Source: a virus | Strand: one strand, 5' to 3' | Virus record (IMG/VR): IMGVR_UViG_3300044729_000707 | Coordinates: 1 to 34,355 of that record | Length of the DNA stretch: 34,355 bases | Part shown: piece after piece, positions 2,525 through 17,736 of the stretch | Layout of the letters: each line of letters begins with the position of its first letter | Numbering within the stretch: position 1 is the stretch's first letter | Notes under the pieces: generated by a model | Databases searched by the model: none | What the model was told of the DNA's origin: nothing | What the model saw: the letters and a program-made list of their open reading frames with translations, nothing else | Program-made: the position numbers and the translations under genes

Positions 2525-3037
2525 TTAGGAAACAAGACCTGCAATGATACCGCTGTTCACTTCGGGAGCAAGTTCTTTCTCGCCACCTGTAAATGTAAGC
2601 GTGTAACCATTTCTGTCGCCTTGTGCAGTTCCTGTCGCAGACGTTCCGCCTGTTACATCGAGACCTGTAAATCGACCTAACAACCAATATTTGTCGTTAG
2701 CATCTTGAACGACTGCCATCAATGTATTTTTAGCCAACAACAAGATTTCATTTCTTGTATTGGCTTGCAGTTTGTTAAGAACAATCGAAAGTTCCTGAGC
2801 GTAAAATACAGTACCATTCTCAACTGAACTTGTGATAGTTTCAGTCAAAGCACCTGTGTTTTTTACTAACTCGTATTTGTAGAATACCTTACCCGCGCCC
2901 TTGGTAATAGCTGAAACGATACCAGAAGCCTCGGTAACTGAAGCCACGTTAGCGTGAGCAATCAGCCACACGGCTTTGATACCGCCTAAACTTTCCCGAC
3001 AATCGAGTGTGTATCCTTGTGTTAAAGCACAAGCCAT
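2525..3037 (-). CDS. Probable major tail tube protein
   Basis: This 170-residue protein begins ACALTQGYTLDCRESLGGIK and ends with a beta-rich segment containing NGYTLTFTGGEKELAP, a pattern I associate with tail tube subunits. It follows the major capsid gene. It is bounded by a hairpin on its upstream side (3066-3091) and a strong terminator on its downstream side (2461-2489), so it sits on its own transcriptional step, as expected for a highly abundant virion protein. It could instead be a head decoration protein. The start has an A/T-rich leader (AAATTTAACAA) and no Shine-Dalgarno. Confidence 0.55.
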   Translation of the reverse strand: MACALTQGYTLDCRESLGGIKAVWLIAHANVASVTEASGIVSAITKGAGKVFYKYELVKNTGALTETITSSVENGTVFYAQELSIVLNKLQANTRNEILLLAKNTLMAVVQDANDKYWLLGRFTGLDVTGGTSATGTAQGDRNGYTLTFTGGEKELAPEVNSGIIAGLVS

Positions 3038-5628: not shown

Positions 5629-7395
5629 TTATCCTAATCTTGCCGCTCTGTTAATCCTACGTATTCTTTCTTGGTTGTTAGTTACGTCGCTTTCAATTAC
5701 ATACGCTCTATTAGTTGCGCTTCCTAATTGTTGAATGCTTGTTGCATCTAATTGTGTTCTTGTGTTTACTAAGGGCGGTTCGGGCGATATTGGCGCACCA
5801 GCAGAGCCACGTGGTAATGTAGAAGCACCGCCAACGCTTTGACTTGAACTTTTAATTTGTTGAATACCTTTCGTAGCTGCTGCAATGCTTGACGCAATAG
5901 AAATCGCTGCGGATGCCGTGTTTATACCTACAAATGGTTGACCAGCAGTTAAGGGGGTTGCTGCTACTGCTTTCGCGTTTGCTACTGCGGTATTTGAAAC
6001 GATACGAGCAATTGACCCAGCTTGTTCAGCTACTATCGCCGCAATTTGTAATGCCTTATTTTGACCAGCTACATTACGCAATAAGCCAGCTAAATTAGAA
6101 GATAAATCTATAAATCCATTTTGTATGTCAATGCGTCGTTGCGCCGCATCTTCTTCATTGCGTATTATTTCTGCATTTGCATTTTGTGTGCTTTGTATTT
6201 GAAATTGTAATGCTTCTAAATTATTTTGAATGCGTTGGTTGAGAAGGTCTTTTTCTTTTTCAACTCTTTCTTTTTCTTTTTCGGCTTGTATCTTTTTTCT
6301 TTCTTCATCTTTTTTATCTAAGATATCAAGTATTTTATCTGCTGCATCAATTCGTTCTTTTAACCTTTCAATTCTGCGTGCTTCAATTGCATCTTCTAAC
6401 GCTGCATCTTCTTGTTGTTTTTTTAACGCTTCATCTGCCGCTTTCTTTCTTGCTTCTTCTGCTTTTTTTGCTTGTTCTTCGGCTGATTTATCTTTTCTTT
6501 TTTGTTCTTGAATATCTAATACCTCTAATTGAGAAGCTAATTTAATACGTTGTTTTATTTCTTCGTCGTTAAGTTCTTCGCCACGTTTTAGTTTCTCGGT
6601 TGTTAAACGAAGTTCATTTTGTATTCTTTCAACACGTTTTTGATAAATTTCATCTTCTTTACCGCCTAAGGCTTCAAGTTTAGATATTTGAACATCAATA
6701 ACATCGTTTTGGTTTTCTATTTCCTTTGCTAATGCTTTTTGTGCGTCGGCAGCGGCTTTGCTACTTTCATTCCATTCAACAATCTTGTTTATCAATAAAC
6801 CAATACCAACAACAAGCGCACCAATACCTGTTGTAATAATAGCTGCGCGCAATGCTTTGAACGCTACACCTGTTGTACTTACGGCAACACCGAACGCACG
6901 TTGAATGGCAGCAGCAGCGATTGTGGCTGCGTTATATGCTTTTTGAAATATGTTTACATTCCTAATTACCGCGCCAAGTTGTTTAAAACTATCAATGCTT
7001 TCGCCAATAGTTTGCAAGCCTTGCGAAATAGCCATTGCAGATTGAACCTTTAACAAGGTCTTTTCTACTTTGTCGCTTTCTACACCCACCAATCCCAACG
7101 CACCCTGTACGGCAGCAAAACCACCAGCAACACCTGCAAGCGTTGAAGTAAACGCCCTAAATTTAGCGTCAGGGTTAAATGCATCGGTCAAACTCTTGGC
7201 ATCCCCGATAGCATCTTTTAATTCAGCGGCTTTCTTTGCTGCTTCTACGGCTTGTTGTGAAGTCGCGCCAAACTTTGCAGAAAGTTCCGTTACTTCCTTT
7301 TGTGCTTCCCTTAATTGTTGTTTAAGCGAACCTACGGATTGCGTCGCTTGACCGCCATCAATTTGTATCTTAATTCCTACTGTTTCTTGTGCCAT
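5629..7395 (-). CDS. Tail tape measure protein
   Basis: This 588-residue protein sets tail length. The N-terminus contains GGQATQSVGSLKQQLREAQKEV, a typical tape-measure opening. A hydrophobic segment lies near residues 185-205 (ITTGIGALVVGIGLLINKIV), followed by long Glu/Lys/Ala coiled coils (about 230-420) and an Ala-rich amphipathic C-terminal part. It is short for the family; at roughly 1.5 angstrom per residue it would suit a tail of about 90 nm. The start (7395) shares its last base with the end of the upstream tail gene. It lies before, not after, the head genes, which is unusual. Confidence 0.82.
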   Translation of the reverse strand: MAQETVGIKIQIDGGQATQSVGSLKQQLREAQKEVTELSAKFGATSQQAVEAAKKAAELKDAIGDAKSLTDAFNPDAKFRAFTSTLAGVAGGFAAVQGALGLVGVESDKVEKTLLKVQSAMAISQGLQTIGESIDSFKQLGAVIRNVNIFQKAYNAATIAAAAIQRAFGVAVSTTGVAFKALRAAIITTGIGALVVGIGLLINKIVEWNESSKAAADAQKALAKEIENQNDVIDVQISKLEALGGKEDEIYQKRVERIQNELRLTTEKLKRGEELNDEEIKQRIKLASQLEVLDIQEQKRKDKSAEEQAKKAEEARKKAADEALKKQQEDAALEDAIEARRIERLKERIDAADKILDILDKKDEERKKIQAEKEKERVEKEKDLLNQRIQNNLEALQFQIQSTQNANAEIIRNEEDAAQRRIDIQNGFIDLSSNLAGLLRNVAGQNKALQIAAIVAEQAGSIARIVSNTAVANAKAVAATPLTAGQPFVGINTASAAISIASSIAAATKGIQQIKSSSQSVGGASTLPRGSAGAPISPEPPLVNTRTQLDATSIQQLGSATNRAYVIESDVTNNQERIRRINRAARLG

Positions 7396-9527: not shown

Positions 9528-10726
9528 CTGTATTGCGAATTGATTTGATATGCTACGTCGATATCTAATTCTAAATTAAAGGTCTTATCAGCAAAGCGTT
9601 TCTTTTCTTGCCAGCTTGTTGTTGAAATATTTACAGGCACAAATTGACTACCTCTTTGTAAATAAACTTCGGATGAAGCAATTAACTCTTTTAGCCAGTT
9701 GTAATCGGTAAAATTTACCCAATCGCTGATTAACTTATAGGTTAACTTCTGTTTTGTTGTAAAAGGAATTGTACCACCATATAAACGACCATACGCATCG
9801 ACCATATCCATTGCCGTTGTCGCGCTTTCATATTCGTATTGTAAACGCTCGAAAGATTGACGCTCTATGCTTCGGCTTTGCCTATTCACTAAGGTAAAGT
9901 GGAATGTTTCATACCCACCTACGGAATTAAGAAAATGCAAAGGGATAACATCGTATTGCGTACACGAAAGATTAACACGGATAACGTCGGTTTGCACACC
10001 TGCAATCTTTGCTTTTACATCATAATAGTTTGTAGCTTCGCCAATGACTTCAGCACCCAAATATGTATTTATCCCCAAAGGCGAAATGTCAATCAATGCA
10101 TAATCTTTCCAAGATTGTGTTGCGCCTGTATAGTTTGTCGAAGTTGTTCCGTTTACGCGTGTGATATCTAAGGAAATATTCTTGGTTGTGTTTTCCGCGT
10201 CACTCAAAAATGAAGTGTAAAGTTTTCCTGTACCTAAAAGGCTTTTAGGAAACTGAACTTGCGTTTTATCTCTGTTAGTTAAATAAAAGCCAGCGTAAGC
10301 GGTATCGTATTTTGTAGGAGTTAAAAATGCATCGGAATTTGGATTGTATAAATAATCCTGTACGTAATTGTAAGCGGTTGCGGATTGTGTTTGTAGATTA
10401 GTGTAGGTTGTGCCGCCATAATCTTCGCCAAACTTAACTTGATAAGAAACGTAAATATCCGAACCAGTATAAGCAAACGCGGTTGAACCTGTTGGCTTGA
10501 AATAAGAGTTCCAATAATTACGCACAATCGGTGCTACATTGAATATCCCTTTTTCGCTCGCTGGTTGTGGGAATGATTTTAACCTTGCTACCAAATTATT
10601 GTTAACGTAAATATCGCATACGTATTTGAAGTTTTCTACTGCCCTATTTGTTGAAGTTACTACAAAGTATAATGCTCCGTGAAGTGAACTATACGATGCG
10701 GGCGAACTATCGATTGTTATTGCCAT
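9524..10726 (-). CDS. Tail structural protein (distal tail candidate)
   Basis: This 400-residue beta-rich protein starts MAITIDSSPASYSSLHGALYF. It has repeated short beta segments such as TKNISLDITRV and VIRVNLSCTQYDVIPLHFLN, and ends FNLELDIDVAYQINSQYR. It overlaps its neighbours on both sides (20 nt with the 223-residue gene, 4 nt with the 710-residue gene), so these genes are translated as a unit. The pair resembles the two consecutive large tail proteins that recur in Bacteroidetes siphophages. A distal tail role is inferred. Confidence 0.6.
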   Translation of the reverse strand: MAITIDSSPASYSSLHGALYFVVTSTNRAVENFKYVCDIYVNNNLVARLKSFPQPASEKGIFNVAPIVRNYWNSYFKPTGSTAFAYTGSDIYVSYQVKFGEDYGGTTYTNLQTQSATAYNYVQDYLYNPNSDAFLTPTKYDTAYAGFYLTNRDKTQVQFPKSLLGTGKLYTSFLSDAENTTKNISLDITRVNGTTSTNYTGATQSWKDYALIDISPLGINTYLGAEVIGEATNYYDVKAKIAGVQTDVIRVNLSCTQYDVIPLHFLNSVGGYETFHFTLVNRQSRSIERQSFERLQYEYESATTAMDMVDAYGRLYGGTIPFTTKQKLTYKLISDWVNFTDYNWLKELIASSEVYLQRGSQFVPVNISTTSWQEKKRFADKTFNLELDIDVAYQINSQYR

Positions 10727-11378
10727 CTTGTCTAATTAAAATTCTTATATCTTGTCCTAATATTTTACTTACTGCCGATGTGAAGTCGCCACCAAAGATT
10801 GAATTTACCGCGTTGTCGAAATACCCTGTTTTTCTCAATCCTTTCTTTTTTATCCCTCTCGCTACCGCGTAAGCTAAACTTTTTTGATTTTTAGATTGAC
10901 TTACCATAGTAGATAGCGATTGTCGTTTGGCTTGTCTTTTGGTTAATGCTACGTCGCCGCGTATATTGTTTCTTCTTATCCAAGAAAGAATATTGGCTTG
11001 CATACCTTGGCTAACGCCTAATGTCTTAAACGAATACGGCGAATTTGGTGTACCTGATTTAACACCTTTAACCCCTTTGTTTACGAAGTCGTAGTATTTA
11101 GCAGCCTTAGAGCCAGCGGGATAACCCACCGAAATTGAATACGTTCCGCCTTGTTTGATTAAATCGCCTGAACTAATATCGTCGCTTAAAGCACCTGTAT
11201 CACTTATGCCTAAAACCTCAATATTCTCTTTTACTTTAAGGACAAAGTTAGCGGCTGAAGCAATTAACAATCTTTCCAAAAAGGGCAACTCATTCAAATC
11301 GGTTTTCGTTGCACCTAATCGATTAAGCAATCCCTCGTCTAAAAGTTCGGCTTGTAATTGTTTAATACTTTTTGCCAT
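10707..11378 (-). CDS. HK97 gp10-like neck or tail completion protein
   Basis: This 223-residue basic protein resembles the HK97 gp10 family in layout. It has an N-terminal helix, a segment with LGISDTGALSDDISSGD followed by a beta hairpin (YSISVGYPAGSKAAKYYDFVNKG), and a Lys/Arg-rich helical tail. That family sits at the head-tail interface. The start at 11378 overlaps the end of the chaperone frameshift product (11362) by 17 nt and lies 10 nt past the stop of the 0-frame product, so both chaperone forms feed into it. The call rests on pattern and context. Confidence 0.58.
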   Translation of the reverse strand: MAKSIKQLQAELLDEGLLNRLGATKTDLNELPFLERLLIASAANFVLKVKENIEVLGISDTGALSDDISSGDLIKQGGTYSISVGYPAGSKAAKYYDFVNKGVKGVKSGTPNSPYSFKTLGVSQGMQANILSWIRRNNIRGDVALTKRQAKRQSLSTMVSQSKNQKSLAYAVARGIKKKGLRKTGYFDNAVNSIFGGDFTSAVSKILGQDIRILIRQDGNNNR

Positions 11379-11643
11379 ACGCTTTTCTTAGTTGTTCGGC
11401 TTCGTATTCGCCTTTCGCTTTAAGGTAAGCAAGGTCATTAAGGTATTGAAGTGTAGGGATTTCATATGCTTGTTCCAGCGTGACTTTTTCGAATGCAGCA
11501 ACCAACTCGGTTTGGTATATCCATCCATAGTATCGCATAAAGTTTGATACACTACTTCTGCCTGATAGCGTGTCATCTTCTTCGCCATCTCTGCTATCAA
11601 ATAATCCCGCGAACTCTTTATCCAGTTTTTGTAAACTTGATAA
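11362..11643 (-). CDS. Tail assembly chaperone, -1 frameshift extension (gpGT-like)
   Basis: This is the part read after a -1 slip on the nine-T run. It gives 93 residues joined to residues 1-160 of the 12122 start, for a 253-residue fusion. The extension reads LSSLQKLDKEFAGLFDSRDG and continues through FMRYYGWIYQTELVAAFEKV to a TAA at 11362-11364, with no stop. Its balanced charge and its RYYGWIY...LNDLAYLKAKGE pattern resemble second-frame extensions of tail chaperones in other phages of this kind. It ends 17 nt inside the next gene. The alternative is a homopolymer sequencing error, which would leave only one true frame. Confidence 0.68.
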   Translation of the reverse strand, partial: LSSLQKLDKEFAGLFDSRDGEEDDTLSGRSSVSNFMRYYGWIYQTELVAAFEKVTLEQAYEIPTLQYLNDLAYLKAKGEYEAEQLRKAYGKKY

Positions 11644-12122
11644 AAAAAAACCACGCTTCCCAAAATAGCGGTTATCGGTGCTTCAAGCATATCTTGCGCG
11701 TATTGCTCGTGCTTGCTTGCGTCGTACTTGTCTAATTTCCACCCCCACAATGTTTTCTTCATCGGCATAACCATACACGCTGCAATCTTGTGTAAGTTGC
11801 CGTTTACGTCTTGCCCGAAATGCTTTGTTTCAATATATCGTGCTGCGGGTATCTTACGCACGTCATAAATGCATTGATACTTCCTGCCGTTTATCTTTAT
11901 GTACTTTTGTGGCTCGGGTTTAATTTCGTCGTGGATAAAGCTAATCGACTTTAACAAAGGGTTCAAATCTTCAATCGGTAAGCTATCGATTTCATTTTCA
12001 GTCATACGCGTACAAATCGCGGCTGATTGAATTGCGATATCTAATTCGTTCAACTCCTTTGTTTTTAAAAACAAATCGTTAAGTTGCTGCCATTGAAATA
12101 CGGATATGTCTTTCCACGTCAT
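11388..12122 (-). CDS. Tail assembly chaperone, 0-frame product (gpG-like)
   Basis: This 244-residue product starts MTWKDISVFQWQQLNDL. Its first 160 residues are an alpha-rich domain ending ITAILGSVVFF, like the N-terminal part of phage tail assembly chaperones. At 11642-11650 the coding strand has nine T, containing T TTT TTT in frame. The 0 frame continues for 84 residues but its last 40 become basic and poorly protein-like (HSKKSRWNKHMKSLHFNTL). The -1 frame over the same bases encodes a much better sequence to 11362. The gene lies upstream of the tape measure, as chaperone genes do, though four genes away instead of adjacent. Confidence 0.7.
   Translation of the reverse strand: MTWKDISVFQWQQLNDLFLKTKELNELDIAIQSAAICTRMTENEIDSLPIEDLNPLLKSISFIHDEIKPEPQKYIKINGRKYQCIYDVRKIPAARYIETKHFGQDVNGNLHKIAACMVMPMKKTLWGWKLDKYDASKHEQYAQDMLEAPITAILGSVVFFYQVYKNWIKSSRDYLIAEMAKKMTRYQAEVVYQTLCDTMDGYTKPSWLLHSKKSRWNKHMKSLHFNTLMTLLTLKRKANTKPNN
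11642..11650 (-). other. Slippery nine-T run for programmed -1 frameshift
   Basis: The coding strand reads GTG GTT TTT TTT TAT. The heptamer T TTT TTT (11649-11643) fits the X XXY YYZ rule, so both tRNAs could re-pair after a -1 slip and the ribosome would continue TTA TCA AGT. I did not find an obvious strong pseudoknot just downstream. Confidence 0.65.
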
Positions 12123-12222: not shown

Positions 12223-13374
12223 TTACATAAAAGAGTATTTGCCTTGCCCTGTATTTCGCGTGTAATGCTGCCACGCTAACGCTAACGCCATCACGCAGTC
12301 GTCGTGAAACCCTTGCGGTGCTGAATACTTAACCCCTGTTGCGGTGTACTGATATTCAAATATTTCAAGTTCTTCCGTTATATGCCCTTGCGGAAAGGTT
12401 ATCTTTCTTTGCTGAATAGCCGATGCCAAGCCTTCCATCAATTGCTGCTTTGAACTCGAAGTAAATTTAAACCCTGTTACAGGTAAACCATCACGTTGCA
12501 AATCTTCGAAGATAGGGTCGCCCGCGCCTGTACTATCAATCAGCGTAGGTACTTTGGGTAGCTGGTTTATGACTTGCTTGGTTTGTCGCCAATCCTTTTG
12601 AAAACGCTCAAAATGACACACCGAGCCGTTCCTATCCAATCCGATAATCACGGTATAGTCAACCGACTTCGCCAAATCGATACCAAACGCAATAGGAGCT
12701 TCATTAGTCGCCTCAAATGTGCATTGCTTGATATAAGTACTTCCGAAAGGATTAGCCGCGTTTTCGGCAGGATTAGCCATATACTCTTGCTCGAATACAA
12801 CCTCGGGTAGTTGGGTTCGGGCATCGTCAATCTCGTTCTTATCCAAATGCGGGTTATCGTACGTTGTGAACTTGAACCCTTGCCAATCGGGTTCGCCGTT
12901 CTTTAAGAATAAAGAATAAAAGAAGTTCTTGCCCTTGGGTGTTGAAATGAATAGCGCGCGCCCTTTGTAATCGGTTAAGGTAGGGCGAATAGAATTTAAC
13001 CAGCCGTTTTCTAAGTCGGGTATAAAAGACGCTTCATCAATCACTCCGAAGTGAAACTTCCTGCCACGTAAGTTATCCAAGCGTTCGCCTGTAAAAAAGT
13101 AAACCGCTCCGCCGTTAGGGAACTTGATTGATAACTCCGATTTGTTGGCTTCGAAAGGAACGGCTTTCGCTAATTGGTCGAAAAACACCCGCGCCAAATT
13201 ATAGGTAGGTGTAACGTAGAATACTTGTTGCCCTTGTAAGGCATTGATAATGATTTCTATTTGCGATAATTCCGATTTCCCAAAACGTCTGCCAGCCATC
13301 ACAACACGAAACCTTGCCTTGCTATCAAGGATTACTTGTTGGTTCTTATGTGGCGTTGGCAGTTCAATTCTCAT
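12223..13374 (-). CDS. terL: Terminase large subunit
   Basis: This 383-residue DNA-packaging motor ATPase and nuclease has Walker A AGRRFGKS at 27-34 and Walker B VIDE at 111-114. A coupling-like STPKG segment lies at about 144-148. The RNase H-like nuclease domain has acidic residues Asp233 (GIDLAKSVDYT), Asp280 (IDSTGAGDP) and Asp358/359 (FHDDCVMALALA). It is compact for the family but has all the main motifs. It overlaps the probable small terminase gene by 4 nt. This is the best gene for placing the phage in a tree. Confidence 0.93.
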   Translation of the reverse strand: MRIELPTPHKNQQVILDSKARFRVVMAGRRFGKSELSQIEIIINALQGQQVFYVTPTYNLARVFFDQLAKAVPFEANKSELSIKFPNGGAVYFFTGERLDNLRGRKFHFGVIDEASFIPDLENGWLNSIRPTLTDYKGRALFISTPKGKNFFYSLFLKNGEPDWQGFKFTTYDNPHLDKNEIDDARTQLPEVVFEQEYMANPAENAANPFGSTYIKQCTFEATNEAPIAFGIDLAKSVDYTVIIGLDRNGSVCHFERFQKDWRQTKQVINQLPKVPTLIDSTGAGDPIFEDLQRDGLPVTGFKFTSSSKQQLMEGLASAIQQRKITFPQGHITEELEIFEYQYTATGVKYSAPQGFHDDCVMALALAWQHYTRNTGQGKYSFM

Positions 13375-13755: not shown

Positions 13756-14856
13756 TTAACCGATAAATTCAAAATGAAATGTTTTAACACCCATTTCTCT
13801 AAAACCATTTTTTCTTGTCATATTACCACCTGTTTTCATTTTCCCTAATAATCTTTTTTCTCCTAAAAACACCCATTGTTTTTGTTTTATCATTGATTTG
13901 AATACTGGTATTGCGCTAAATTTTGCCATAATTCTAAAATCATATGTTTCTTTCATATATTTAGAAGTAAGGTTAATCAATTTTATACCCAATCCAAAAC
14001 CTTGATAATCTGGGTGTATTACCGTTCTATTGCTATGAAATATTTTTTTTTGTCCTTTTTTGAATGGAACATAATTTGAAAAACATTGAAAACCAATTTG
14101 ATTATCGCCTAAAAACAAACCAAACATATAATTTTTGCCACCCGGCAATTTATCACTTAAATAATGATATTTGCTATAATATTTCCACGATTGTCCGCTG
14201 ATTGGTTTAATTGTAAATTCAATTTGTTCTCTTTTGTTAAAAAAAAAATCGGCATTTTGCCTTTCAATAAATTCTTGTTTATTACAATCTATTATCCAAT
14301 CAGGTTCTAACCATTCCACAACGTCATAATGACAAGAACATAATATAATTTTTTTATTGTTTTTTTTGGCATATTTCTGCAATGTATAACTCATTGCTTT
14401 TGCAACATTCCTATCTACAACACTTGTCCATTCATCTATAACAATTATTTCATTTTCTTGTGTCATTAACAATGCAGCTTCCGCTCTTGCTTTTTGACCA
14501 TTAGATAAAGTATAAACAGGTCTTACCCAACACGGAACTGAATTTAACCCAATTCCAGATAATATTGCAGCGCATTGTTCATAACTTAAATGTTCTGGTA
14601 ATTGATTGATTATTGGAATATCTTCTTGTAATGGCGATTTGAAAATATTTTGCCCAAATATTTTTTTTGCTAATGTTGTTTTACCGCTTCCGCTTGAACC
14701 TAAAATAATTCCTATATTAAATTTTTCTGGAATTTTAGCATTAATAACCAAATGGTGTTTTGATTTTTTGGATATATCAATATCTAAACTATCGCAAGCT
14801 AATTTACATCTAAAATTATTGCTAATTGGGCTTTCCAATAATACTTCGTATTTCAT
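13756..14856 (-). CDS. ABC-type ATPase fused to GNAT acetyltransferase-like domain (COG2401-like)
   Basis: This 366-residue protein has two domains. Residues 1-200 are an ABC ATPase with Walker A GSSGSGKT (53-60), signature LSNGQ (117-121), Walker B IIVIDE (137-142) and an H-loop His at 176. It has no membrane segment, so it is not a transporter. Residues about 211-366 are GNAT-like, with RTVIHPDYQGFGLGIKL (277-293) matching the acetyl-CoA-binding QxxGxG motif. The layout matches COG2401. GNAT-related Mom of phage Mu modifies DNA, so base modification is a reasonable guess. The stop-to-start junction with the ParB-like gene is a 1-nt overlap. The gene is more AT-rich than its neighbours, which suggests recent transfer. 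Confidence 0.8.
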   Translation of the reverse strand: MKYEVLLESPISNNFRCKLACDSLDIDISKKSKHHLVINAKIPEKFNIGIILGSSGSGKTTLAKKIFGQNIFKSPLQEDIPIINQLPEHLSYEQCAAILSGIGLNSVPCWVRPVYTLSNGQKARAEAALLMTQENEIIVIDEWTSVVDRNVAKAMSYTLQKYAKKNNKKIILCSCHYDVVEWLEPDWIIDCNKQEFIERQNADFFFNKREQIEFTIKPISGQSWKYYSKYHYLSDKLPGGKNYMFGLFLGDNQIGFQCFSNYVPFKKGQKKIFHSNRTVIHPDYQGFGLGIKLINLTSKYMKETYDFRIMAKFSAIPVFKSMIKQKQWVFLGEKRLLGKMKTGGNMTRKNGFREMGVKTFHFEFIG

Positions 14857-15380
14857 TAATTTACTATTTTAACGTCTAAACCATCTAAAATAAATTTTTC
14901 ATACAACTTTTGTGCGTGTGCTTCATTATCACATTTTATATTTAATAACCAAGCTAATTCAGTATCATACCCGCTTGGTTCTATTGGTTCTTGTTCTAAG
15001 AATTCTTGTTTATCAAACCCCGGTATATCCAATCCCCATTCTTGTAATTGTTCACTATCCCAATTATTGGCTAAATCGTTCCAATCCCATTCCCCGAAAC
15101 CTACGTTGTCTTTAATGATAAATTCTTTTTGTTGTTCTTCGGTAAGGTTTGAGGCTTTTATGATAGGTATTTCTTTCAATCCCGCCTCTAAACACGCTTT
15201 AAGGCGCATATTGCCACCCAAAACAATCATATCGTCATTGACTACGATAGGGCGTATTTCAAGCATCTGCGGGAACTCTTGTATTGACTTAACAAGTTTG
15301 GCAAACTTTTCATCCTTGATAATTCTCGGATTGTTGGGGTTTGTTCGAACCTTGTTTATGTTTACTAATTCTGCTTTCAT
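14856..15380 (-). CDS. ParB/Srx-like nuclease-domain protein
   Basis: This 174-residue protein has a ParB N-terminal-like domain at residues 10-75. It shows NPNNPRIIKDEKFAKLVKSI, then IRPIVVNDDMIVLGGNMRLKA, equivalent to the ENRR-type nucleotide-binding loop. A segment with KDNVGFGEWDWNDLANNWD follows (about 111-129), as seen in ParB-methyltransferase proteins of phages. Here no methyltransferase domain is attached. It lies immediately before the ABC-GNAT gene, so it may guide that enzyme to DNA. Partitioning is unlikely because no ParA is present. Confidence 0.75.
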   Translation of the reverse strand: MKAELVNINKVRTNPNNPRIIKDEKFAKLVKSIQEFPQMLEIRPIVVNDDMIVLGGNMRLKACLEAGLKEIPIIKASNLTEEQQKEFIIKDNVGFGEWDWNDLANNWDSEQLQEWGLDIPGFDKQEFLEQEPIEPSGYDTELAWLLNIKCDNEAHAQKLYEKFILDGLDVKIVN

Positions 15381-16000
15381 AATATTACATAATTATTTGT
15401 AGATTGATATTTTCCTGTTTCTTGCGCCCACAATTTATCGCACTTCATTAACCCCTCGTCTTTCATTTTTCTATATGGGGTATCTTGTCCTACGTCGTGA
15501 CCGATATGCTCTGCCGTTAATCCGCTTAAATAGTAATTCAAATGCCCTGTCTGTTGTAATCTAAAAGAATAATCCCTATCCTGCATTCCGTAAGGGTCGT
15601 ACACCTCATTGAACTTGCCTATTGTTTCAATTGCTTTCATTGGTATCAATACGTTACCAAATACGGCATCGGCTTTATGAATAGGAATATCGTTCACGTA
15701 GGTTCTTTCGCCCAAACCCTCTACACAATGTATGCCACACATTCCAGTATTAGGAATGGCGTAGGCAGCTTCTACCATTCTCGCCAACCAGTCGTCGGGC
15801 ATTAGGATATCGTTTGCCATTGTTACAATAGCATCGTATTGATAGCTTCTACTTATGCCGTAATTGATGGCACGAGAGATTCCTTTCATTTCAACTTCAA
15901 TAAAGTCAAAATGAAACCCCGCATTAGCAAAGTTTCTGCTCTTTACTCTTTGCGTGTGTTCTTTACGTTCGTAGTTTAATAAGATTACATTAACGAGCAT
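15377..16000 (-). CDS. GT-A fold (family 2-like) glycosyltransferase
   Basis: This 207-residue protein starts LVNVILLNYERKEHTQRV, a GT2-like first strand. The acidic motif MANDILMPDDW (61-71) stands in for the metal- and sugar-nucleotide-binding DxD. YGMQDRDYSFRLQQTG near 157-172 resembles the catalytic ED/R region. It is short for a GT2 enzyme but looks whole. It overlaps the hexapeptide gene by 11 nt and the ParB-like gene by 4 nt, so it is co-translated with both. The acceptor could be virion protein, DNA or a host surface glycan. Confidence 0.72.
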   Translation of the reverse strand: MLVNVILLNYERKEHTQRVKSRNFANAGFHFDFIEVEMKGISRAINYGISRSYQYDAIVTMANDILMPDDWLARMVEAAYAIPNTGMCGIHCVEGLGERTYVNDIPIHKADAVFGNVLIPMKAIETIGKFNEVYDPYGMQDRDYSFRLQQTGHLNYYLSGLTAEHIGHDVGQDTPYRKMKDEGLMKCDKLWAQETGKYQSTNNYVIL

Positions 16001-16466
16001 TGCTTCCGATTTCTTTTACTGGCACGCCAGCGTATTTGTGATTAGGTTGTAATATCGATTTTTTTCCTACGAATGCCGAAGCACCAATCATACAACCCTC
16101 GGGTATTCTTATCTTTTGGTGCAGTACCGCATTTAAACCTATGTTGCAATTCTTTTCTATTATAGTATGCCCCCCGACCTTTGCGCCACAACTCAATGTA
16201 ACGTTCTCGGCTAATATAGCGTCATGGCCGACGTGCGCGCCTTTCATAAGATAGCAACCTTTTCCAATAATCGTTCTATGTTGCGTTCCGCTATCCACCG
16301 TGACTGCGCCTGTTAATCTCGAGCCACTCATTATCGTAACTAAACCCTCGCAATGCTCATAGCCTTTCCACTCTGCGGGTGCGCCAATAATACAATAAGG
16401 ACCGATATAAACATCGGGTTCGATAATTACATTCGGGTAAATGATTGCAGTAGGGTGTATATACAT
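15990..16466 (-). CDS. LpxA-like left-handed beta-helix acyltransferase
   Basis: This 158-residue protein has hexapeptide repeats throughout, for example IYPNVIIEPDVYIGPYCIIG at the start, later HVGHDAILAENVTLSCGAKVGG. It ends with the usual AGVPVKEIG cap. The GAHVGHDA segment holds the His expected at the LpxA/LpxD active site. It resembles UDP-GlcNAc O-acyltransferases but lacks their helical C-terminal domain, so a sugar-nucleotide acetyltransferase is as likely. It lies between two glycosyltransferase genes and may make or decorate a sugar donor. Confidence 0.78.
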   Translation of the reverse strand: MYIHPTAIIYPNVIIEPDVYIGPYCIIGAPAEWKGYEHCEGLVTIMSGSRLTGAVTVDSGTQHRTIIGKGCYLMKGAHVGHDAILAENVTLSCGAKVGGHTIIEKNCNIGLNAVLHQKIRIPEGCMIGASAFVGKKSILQPNHKYAGVPVKEIGSNAR

Positions 16467-16630
16467 TAGTTCATCAATTTAAGATAGTCAATTTCAACAC
16501 TTTCCTTGTCCTCGATAGTTTCTTTCCTTTCGATTGTGTTTATTATACTTCTTATGAGCCTTTCCTTTTCTTCGCTTCCCAAATGTTTGCTTTCCAATAG
16601 TTCCAAGTTTAGCCATAACTCAACGACCAT
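16466..16630 (-). CDS. Small hypothetical protein in the glycosylation cluster
   Basis: This protein has 54 residues from ATG at 16630 (MVVELWLNLELLESK). The frame opens at 16663, but that longer start would cut into the well-formed 47-residue gene upstream. The chosen start overlaps that gene's stop by 11 nt. It is charged and helical (EEKERLIRSIINTIERKE), with no known motif. The 1-nt overlap with the hexapeptide gene indicates translational coupling. Confidence 0.55.
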   Translation of the reverse strand: MVVELWLNLELLESKHLGSEEKERLIRSIINTIERKETIEDKESVEIDYLKLMN

Positions 16631-16763
16631 TTTTTTTCTTCTTTGAATACTTGCCGCTTGCAAGAATAGCTTTCCACACTTTTTCCGCTTTCTCTTTTGT
16701 ATCGTAAATACATTGACCGCTACCGATGCGGTATTTACCGTTACTACATTTTAATACTGGCAT
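16620..16763 (-). CDS. Small conserved-looking protein, 47 residues
   Basis: ATG at 16763 opens a 47-residue frame that stops at 16620. It begins MPVLKCSNGKYRIGSG and continues with a helix YDTKEKAEKVWKAILASGKY and a basic tail KKKKNGR. Small phage proteins of this type (Cys-Ser-Asn-Gly-Lys-Tyr opening, then a helix and Lys tail) are common, but their function is unknown. It fills the otherwise empty space between two genes and overlaps the upstream glycosyltransferase stop (16744) by 20 nt. Confidence 0.65.
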   Translation of the reverse strand: MPVLKCSNGKYRIGSGQCIYDTKEKAEKVWKAILASGKYSKKKKNGR

Positions 16764-17736
16764 ACAATTGTTTTCTTTTCTCGTTTACCTTAATTAAGTC
16801 AAAGTTTTGTATTGCCCACTCGTGCAACTCCAAACCCTTTTCCTGTCTATAAATAGCATCTTGCGTGACTTTTTTAATCTGCTTAAACCAATCTGTCTGT
16901 TTATCAACGGCTAAGATTGGCGCGCCCTTATATGGATGCACGTTGCTAACAATAGCGGGTATCTTTTTGCAAGCGGCTTCTAATAGTTTAAGATTAGATT
17001 TCATCGAATTAAAGGTTGTTTCCATCAAAGGAACTATCGTACAATCGGCATCATTGTAAAAATTCATATACTCGGTAACTGGCAACGCTGCGCGAATATG
17101 TCCTAACTTAAACCCACAAGTAAACGTTTGTATCATATTGTGCCATACGTTCGCGTAATACTTTTCTTCTGGATTGTAGCCGCAAAAACAAAACTCAACT
17201 TGGTTCTTTAATTCTAAAACTCTTTTGAGTGGGTTGCGTAGGATGGCAACGTCTTTCTCGTGTGTGATACTTCCAGCGTAAACAAACCTTACCTTGTCGC
17301 TTTCCGTTCTTACATCGGTAAATTGGTCTTTGCCATACGGCAACGCGTTGGGTAAAATCTCTACGTTCTTATTAAAAGGCAATACCCTATCTCTTAATCT
17401 TTCGTGTGTCGTTGTAACTAAGTCGGCAGCCTTTATATGCTCAATGATTGTTTCCGTAGGGTAGTTCTTGATTATATGGTGGCTATCCAATACCCAATAA
17501 TCGTCTATGTCAACTATTAACTTAAAGCCGTACTTTTCTTTATAGGCTAAAATTGTTTCTAATTCTACCCCTGATATAAAGCGATTGATTAAAAGAATAT
17601 CGTAATTGTCTTTTAAGTTTTCTTCGCTGAGTACGTCGGTAAATAAAGCATACGTTTTTGGTAGGTAGTAAATAGGTAACATTAACCTATGATACCCAAC
17701 ACCGCTATTCTGTTGTGTTACGACAAGTATTCTCAT
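16744..17736 (-). CDS. GT-B fold glycosyltransferase (GT4-like)
   Basis: This 330-residue protein has a Rossmann-like N-terminus (MRILVVTQQNSGVGYHRLMLP, a GT4-type opening). The second domain starts near 145 (VRFVYAGSITHEKD). FNSMKSNLKLLEAACKKIPAIVS (about 246-268) carries the Lys/Glu donor-binding motif of GT4 enzymes, with Glu in LLEAA. It looks complete. It is the first of three sugar- or acyl-related genes in the run, and overlaps the AT-hook protein gene by 4 nt. It may modify the virion, host glycans or DNA. Confidence 0.75.
   Translation of the reverse strand: MRILVVTQQNSGVGYHRLMLPIYYLPKTYALFTDVLSEENLKDNYDILLINRFISGVELETILAYKEKYGFKLIVDIDDYWVLDSHHIIKNYPTETIIEHIKAADLVTTTHERLRDRVLPFNKNVEILPNALPYGKDQFTDVRTESDKVRFVYAGSITHEKDVAILRNPLKRVLELKNQVEFCFCGYNPEEKYYANVWHNMIQTFTCGFKLGHIRAALPVTEYMNFYNDADCTIVPLMETTFNSMKSNLKLLEAACKKIPAIVSNVHPYKGAPILAVDKQTDWFKQIKKVTQDAIYRQEKGLELHEWAIQNFDLIKVNEKRKQLYASIKM

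Follow-up and report, generated by a model that had tools for sequence, protein, structure and literature searches.

A probable tail assembly chaperone gene in the window (the whole stretch of DNA analyzed here, from a freshwater virus, 34,355 nt, IMG/VR record IMGVR_UViG_3300044729_000707) is likely made as two proteins by a ribosomal -1 slip on a U9 run. Sequence comparison strongly supports programmed -1 recoding at this T-run, rather than an indel. The following features of the window are used throughout.

11388..12122, minus strand: 0-frame ORF of 244 aa, the G-like product (ATG at 12122, TAA at 11390-11388)
11642..11650, minus strand: slip site, a T9 run with the in-phase heptamer T_TTT_TTT at 11649-11643
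11362..11643, minus strand: -1 frame extension of 93 codons plus stop, the T-like part of the fusion
11391..11642, minus strand: 0-frame tail past the slip, 84 codons, of which the first ~40 are conserved and predicted helical and the remainder open and variable
12223..13374, minus strand: terminase large subunit, directly upstream of the recoded gene
10707..11378, minus strand: HK97-gp10-like tail component, the next gene downstream (PF04883, E 1e-4)
5629..7395, minus strand: probable tape measure protein, 588 aa (phrog_339, E 5e-8)

The codon phasing at the T-run of the window is GTG GTT TTT TTT TAT, with exactly nine T, and the slip position is codon 160 of 244. The -1 frame ends with a stop at 11364-11362, which results in a fusion of 253 aa, and the 0-frame and the -1 frame are open together over 255 nt (11642-11388). 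A first-pass annotation of this DNA had claimed an in-phase T_TTT_TTT, a 93-residue open -1 frame, products of 244 and 253 aa and dual coding over more than 250 nt, and all of this was borne out by our reading of the sequence. The length of the 0-frame product is steady in the window clade (243-245 aa). In the window, as in most or nearly all window-clade members examined, 9 nt separate the 0-frame stop from the ATG of the next gene, in which the -1 frame comes to its end. With such a spacing of the 0-frame stop and the -1 end inside the following gene, translation of the latter may be coupled or tuned.

We scanned viral contigs with the fusion as query and obtained 62 loci, 60 of which were examined. 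Of these 60, 58 have an intact slip site and share the -1 relation, with a T9 run in 57 and a T10 run in the remaining one; L046 ends before the slip site, and L056 was set aside (many frame errors, T5 run). Scans with three divergent members added 86 further examined loci, 82 with T9 and four with T10. Three of these 86 are contigs that had already been found, which brings the total to ~141 loci. The arrangement is kept in these ~141 loci (137 T9, 4 T10), and no intact locus has a run shorter than nine. The relatives form four clades with 83-85, 62-64, 61 and 25 codons of 0-frame past the slip. No prophage relatives were found in a scan of genome contigs. With these loci a large, hitherto unannotated phage family, mostly metagenomic, joins the G/GT recoding genes.

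Homopolymer runs are error-prone, and a relative such as L056 could be taken as a sign that the true run is T10, due to a sequencing or assembly error, or that the gene is decayed and its frame broken. However, ~137 T9 loci from many metagenomes and from isolate genomes show the same frames, and both frames are constrained (see below). Based on these two observations an indel or sequencing error was ruled out, and we regard the chance of error or decay as negligible. Among the assembled sequences compared, none of the relatives carries the -1 text in one uninterrupted frame, and this text forms a protein domain that is conserved across all four clades, including the isolated phage. The claim of a probable -1 frameshift at the T-run is backed by the ~141 conserved loci together with the selection on two frames.

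The Nonlabens phages P12024S and P12024L are members of the 25-codon clade and share ~25% identity with the window protein. Their slip site reads CTT TTT TTT TAT with the T9 run in the same phase. As in the window, the -1 extension is kept and carries the conserved F..W..A..L..Y residues, whereas the 0-frame tail differs from that of the window and reaches just 25 codons past the slip. In the annotation the gene is divided into two hypothetical genes (38+39 / 40+41), and PHROGs 32199 and 38404 each correspond to one half of this single P12024S/L fusion. Judged from the DNA sequence, the P12024S/L annotation is split at the recoding site. The P12024S homologue sits right after terL, and the portal, protease, capsid and tail genes of this phage have homologues in the window. 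Based on the Nonlabens relatives, the host phylum is probably Bacteroidetes.

In the P12024S record the -1 part stands as a CDS of its own, P12024S_39, which would suggest an overlapping gene that is translated from a separate start codon. Indeed, many members have an ATG ahead of the conserved YGW motif. However, this Met is replaced in some members (by L in L057 and by I in L116), and conservation of the -1 frame already begins ahead of it, straight from the slip (LSSLQKLDKEFEGLFD). Furthermore, an invariant T9 and an invariant frame relation would be unnecessary for such a gene. The unconserved internal Met and the conservation starting at the slip led us to reject an independent -1 gene, which we consider highly improbable. 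In L013-L016, L038, L044 and L045 the -1 frame is closed up to 5 nt before the T-run, and conservation of the -1 protein begins directly after the run. Since the -1 frame opens 5 nt ahead and conservation is seen from the run onward, the switch happens at the T-run.

The run itself appears to be selected. The Phe codons of the slip site are TTT in 214 of 214 cases (107 entries), while elsewhere in the gene TTT and TTC occur 289 and 232 times, respectively (55% TTT). The slip run was present in 21/21 representative loci (223 kb), in which just three other A/T runs of at least nine were observed, compared to 36.6 expected under a first-order model; both the TTT and the run counts come from related entries and hence are not independent events. 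Nevertheless, synonymous positions of the gene diverge widely (pS ~0.72).

We then compared substitutions in the two overlapping frames. For the fused frame of the window clade, pS is ~0.72 ahead of the overlap and 0.20-0.51 within it. Members of the L058 clade show ~0.26-0.36 within the overlap, and their values rise to 0.78-0.81 after the 0-frame has ended. Suppression of synonymous change in the -1 frame is confined to the stretch that both frames share. Within the overlap, the linker (fusion residues ~177-195) has a pN/pS of 1.3 in the -1 frame, whereas the same stretch reaches 0.23-0.27 in the 0-frame. Beyond the linker the relation is reversed, with 0.17-0.24 in the -1 frame (the conserved second half) and ~1.0 in the 0-frame. 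This is dual coding by turns, in which each frame is conserved where the other is loose. It had been claimed that the -1 text is clearly more protein-like than the 0-frame tail. This fits the later part of the tail, which looks unconstrained with a 0-frame pN/pS of ~1, and fails for the first ~40 tail residues, with their pN/pS of 0.23-0.27.

Synonymous shuffling with the -1 amino acids fixed rarely preserved an open 0-frame, in no more than 0.4% of the trials for each of ten window-clade sequences. When the 0-frame amino acids were fixed in the same ten sequences, the -1 frame was open in at most 0.25%. The effect was weaker in the shorter-tailed L057 and L058. The last ~40 0-frame codons of the window clade seem unconstrained as protein, yet they are kept open (P 0.003-0.022). 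Translational coupling to the next gene would be a plausible reason for keeping this end open. The pattern of constraint makes the need of G for its own C-terminus a testable question.

The 244 aa product was modeled with AlphaFold2 (mean pLDDT 77). The start of the 0-frame tail (~40 residues) is predicted to be helical with fair confidence, and confidence is low past residue 200. Model confidence along the tail thus matches its conservation. A model of the -1 part alone had a pLDDT of 60. A fold search of solved structures with the 244 aa model yielded no PDB match at E <= 0.001 and none with Z >= 5, and only unrelated proteins were returned. Among predicted viral structures (BFVD) the neighbors were many uncharacterised phage proteins, including the Nonlabens homologue (E 2.6e-8). 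One neighbor named tail assembly chaperone ranked 44 with a weak E of 0.37. A further fold neighbor, from Flavobacterium phage 6H (E 6e-3), was rejected, as the 191 aa ORF fitting the length of the accession is without a comparable -1 extension.

What, then, is the recoded protein? One indication comes from PF10109 (Phage_TAC_7; E, or 41 or 14), which scores 13-20 bits in the matching members versus a curated cut-off of 25 bits. The match covers residues ~20-64, equivalent to just about half of the profile with its 79 positions. When 16 phage records were searched in six frames with PF10109, eight of them matched, once each, and by coordinates the match was always the recoded gene. The window's own copy gave no match to PF10109. 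None of the Pfam and NCBIfam models scored above cut-off for the recoded gene, and matches to phrog_166 and NCBIfam were discarded as noise-level. Since the sub-threshold PF10109 matches are confined to this gene, its neighborhood consists of tail and packaging genes and its architecture is of the G plus T type, we consider the gene a probable tail assembly chaperone. The label given in the first-pass annotation is hence kept as probable and unproven.

The two-product recoding could be real even if the protein is a different kind of assembly factor, for the tail or the head, with alternative C-termini. That no TAC model reaches its curated cut-off, that the tape measure gene is not adjacent and that a solved-structure match is missing would all fit such a factor. 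The sole PF10109 matches in eight phage records, all on the recoded gene, argue against it, as do the HK97-gp10-like tail component directly downstream and the -1 G/T arrangement, which is typical of TAC genes (PMC5009743, PMC10885494). We therefore hold a non-chaperone function to be quite improbable.

Compared to the lambda gpG/gpGT system (PMC5009743), the probable chaperone gene shares a -1 slip at a heptamer that joins a common N-terminal domain to a T-like extension, and a neighborhood of tail and packaging genes. No significant sequence similarity to lambda G/GT was found. The usual slip is located near the 3' end, whereas here G continues for another 84 codons past it, and unlike in lambda, G has a long alternative C-terminus that is partly selected. 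TAC genes are usually located directly upstream of the tape measure gene, while here three ORFs separate the recoded gene from the probable tape measure gene. Consequently, calling this a classical G/GT arrangement, as the first-pass annotation did, is right with respect to the two-product -1 design and does not describe the long, partly conserved G C-terminus, the position of the slip and the distance to the tape measure gene. The recoding is of a known kind and unusual in its long dual-coding design.

By analogy with gpG/gpGT we propose that most ribosomes would stay in the 0 frame and make the 244 aa G-like protein, a product ratio that we infer. A minority would slip one base back on the U_UUU_UUU within U9 and produce the 253 aa G-T fusion. 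In the fusion, residues 1-160 lead into an acidic and variable linker, and then into a conserved domain from F..YGW.Y to near fLN.lAYlKa. On the lambda model, the part common to both products would bind to the tape measure protein, while tail-tube subunits would be brought in by the T-like part. Other phage G/GT genes use ribosomal -1 shifting at slippery heptamers (PMC5009743), and reporter assays of TAC sites from other phages gave 6-7% shifting (PMC3711429). The in-phase U_UUU_UUU follows the slippery pattern X_XXY_YYZ and is compatible with tandem tRNA slippage.

The run may however be read by the polymerase instead. RNA polymerase would then stutter on T9, and mRNAs with one additional U (or lacking two) would yield the fusion by ordinary translation. 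Runs of nine, or Tn with n > 8, are reported slip sites of bacterial RNA polymerase (PMC3711429, PMC5009743), and the T9 found here falls within this published range. The run is never below nine in any intact locus, and the third frame closes within ~7-14 codons, so that off-target transcripts would give short tails. In addition, we detected no covarying RNA stimulator downstream of the run; none of the 15 predicted pairs was changed on both sides. The main predicted RNA stem takes in the T-run itself, and single-sequence RNA folding was unremarkable (z -1.5 to 0.3). Against a stuttering polymerase speaks that the in-phase heptamer T_TTT_TTT is always present, as tandem tRNA slippage expects, and that known G/GT genes shift on the ribosome (PMC5009743). 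Moreover, the flanking codons (GTT/CTT before, TAT/TGT/TTA after) demand two extra Ts, and the T9 length is therefore not independent evidence for polymerase slippage. Weighing these points by judgement, not by computed odds, we favor ribosomal slippage and infer the ribosome to be the slipping agent; transcriptional slippage is the less likely reading, although it deserves serious attention.

Strictly conserved A/T runs of at least nine with two products are known from the A9 of Thermus dnaX and from Shigella T3SS genes (PMC5009743, PMC3711429). Unlike in those cases, the run described here doubles as an in-phase ribosomal heptamer, and its two products are predicted from the DNA sequence. 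A more specific version of the polymerase reading would be that the gene encodes alternative-C-terminus chaperone isoforms with an overlap of ~150-260 nt, in which both endings are functional and the choice is made by polymerase stutter on T9. We think this is unlikely; if true, the G/GT switch would here be operated by transcriptional slippage. A U9 site without a detectable stimulator provides a test case for ribosome versus polymerase.

Several further observations were made in the window and its relatives. The copy in L039 (1649-2406) has an in-frame stop at codon 42 and is otherwise intact, pointing to either a sequencing error or a broken gene. The L082/L110 (63 kb) and L129/L138 (50 kb) contigs contain two copies of the recoded gene each, ~31-33 kb apart, which suggests concatemeric or chimeric assemblies of related phages. 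At 13756-14856 (minus strand) the window encodes a fusion of an ABC-type ATPase (PF00005 E 9e-9) with a GNAT acetyltransferase domain (sub-threshold), a homologue of P12024S_24 (E 1e-55). This gene holds A8, A8, T10 and A9 runs, and long A/T runs are rare in the related phage contigs. It is adjoined by a ParB_N gene (14856-15380), and a role of the two in DNA modification would be a guess. Genes for a family 2 glycosyltransferase, a hexapeptide transferase and a group 1 glycosyltransferase (15377-17736, minus strand) lie between the early region and terL. Finally, a 170 aa protein of the window (2525-3037), a candidate tube protein, matches both P12024S_03 (L158 2149-2694, E 4e-23) and P12024S_09 (5953-6552, E 3e-13), and on sequence grounds this suggests that P12024S has two related tail-tube-like genes.
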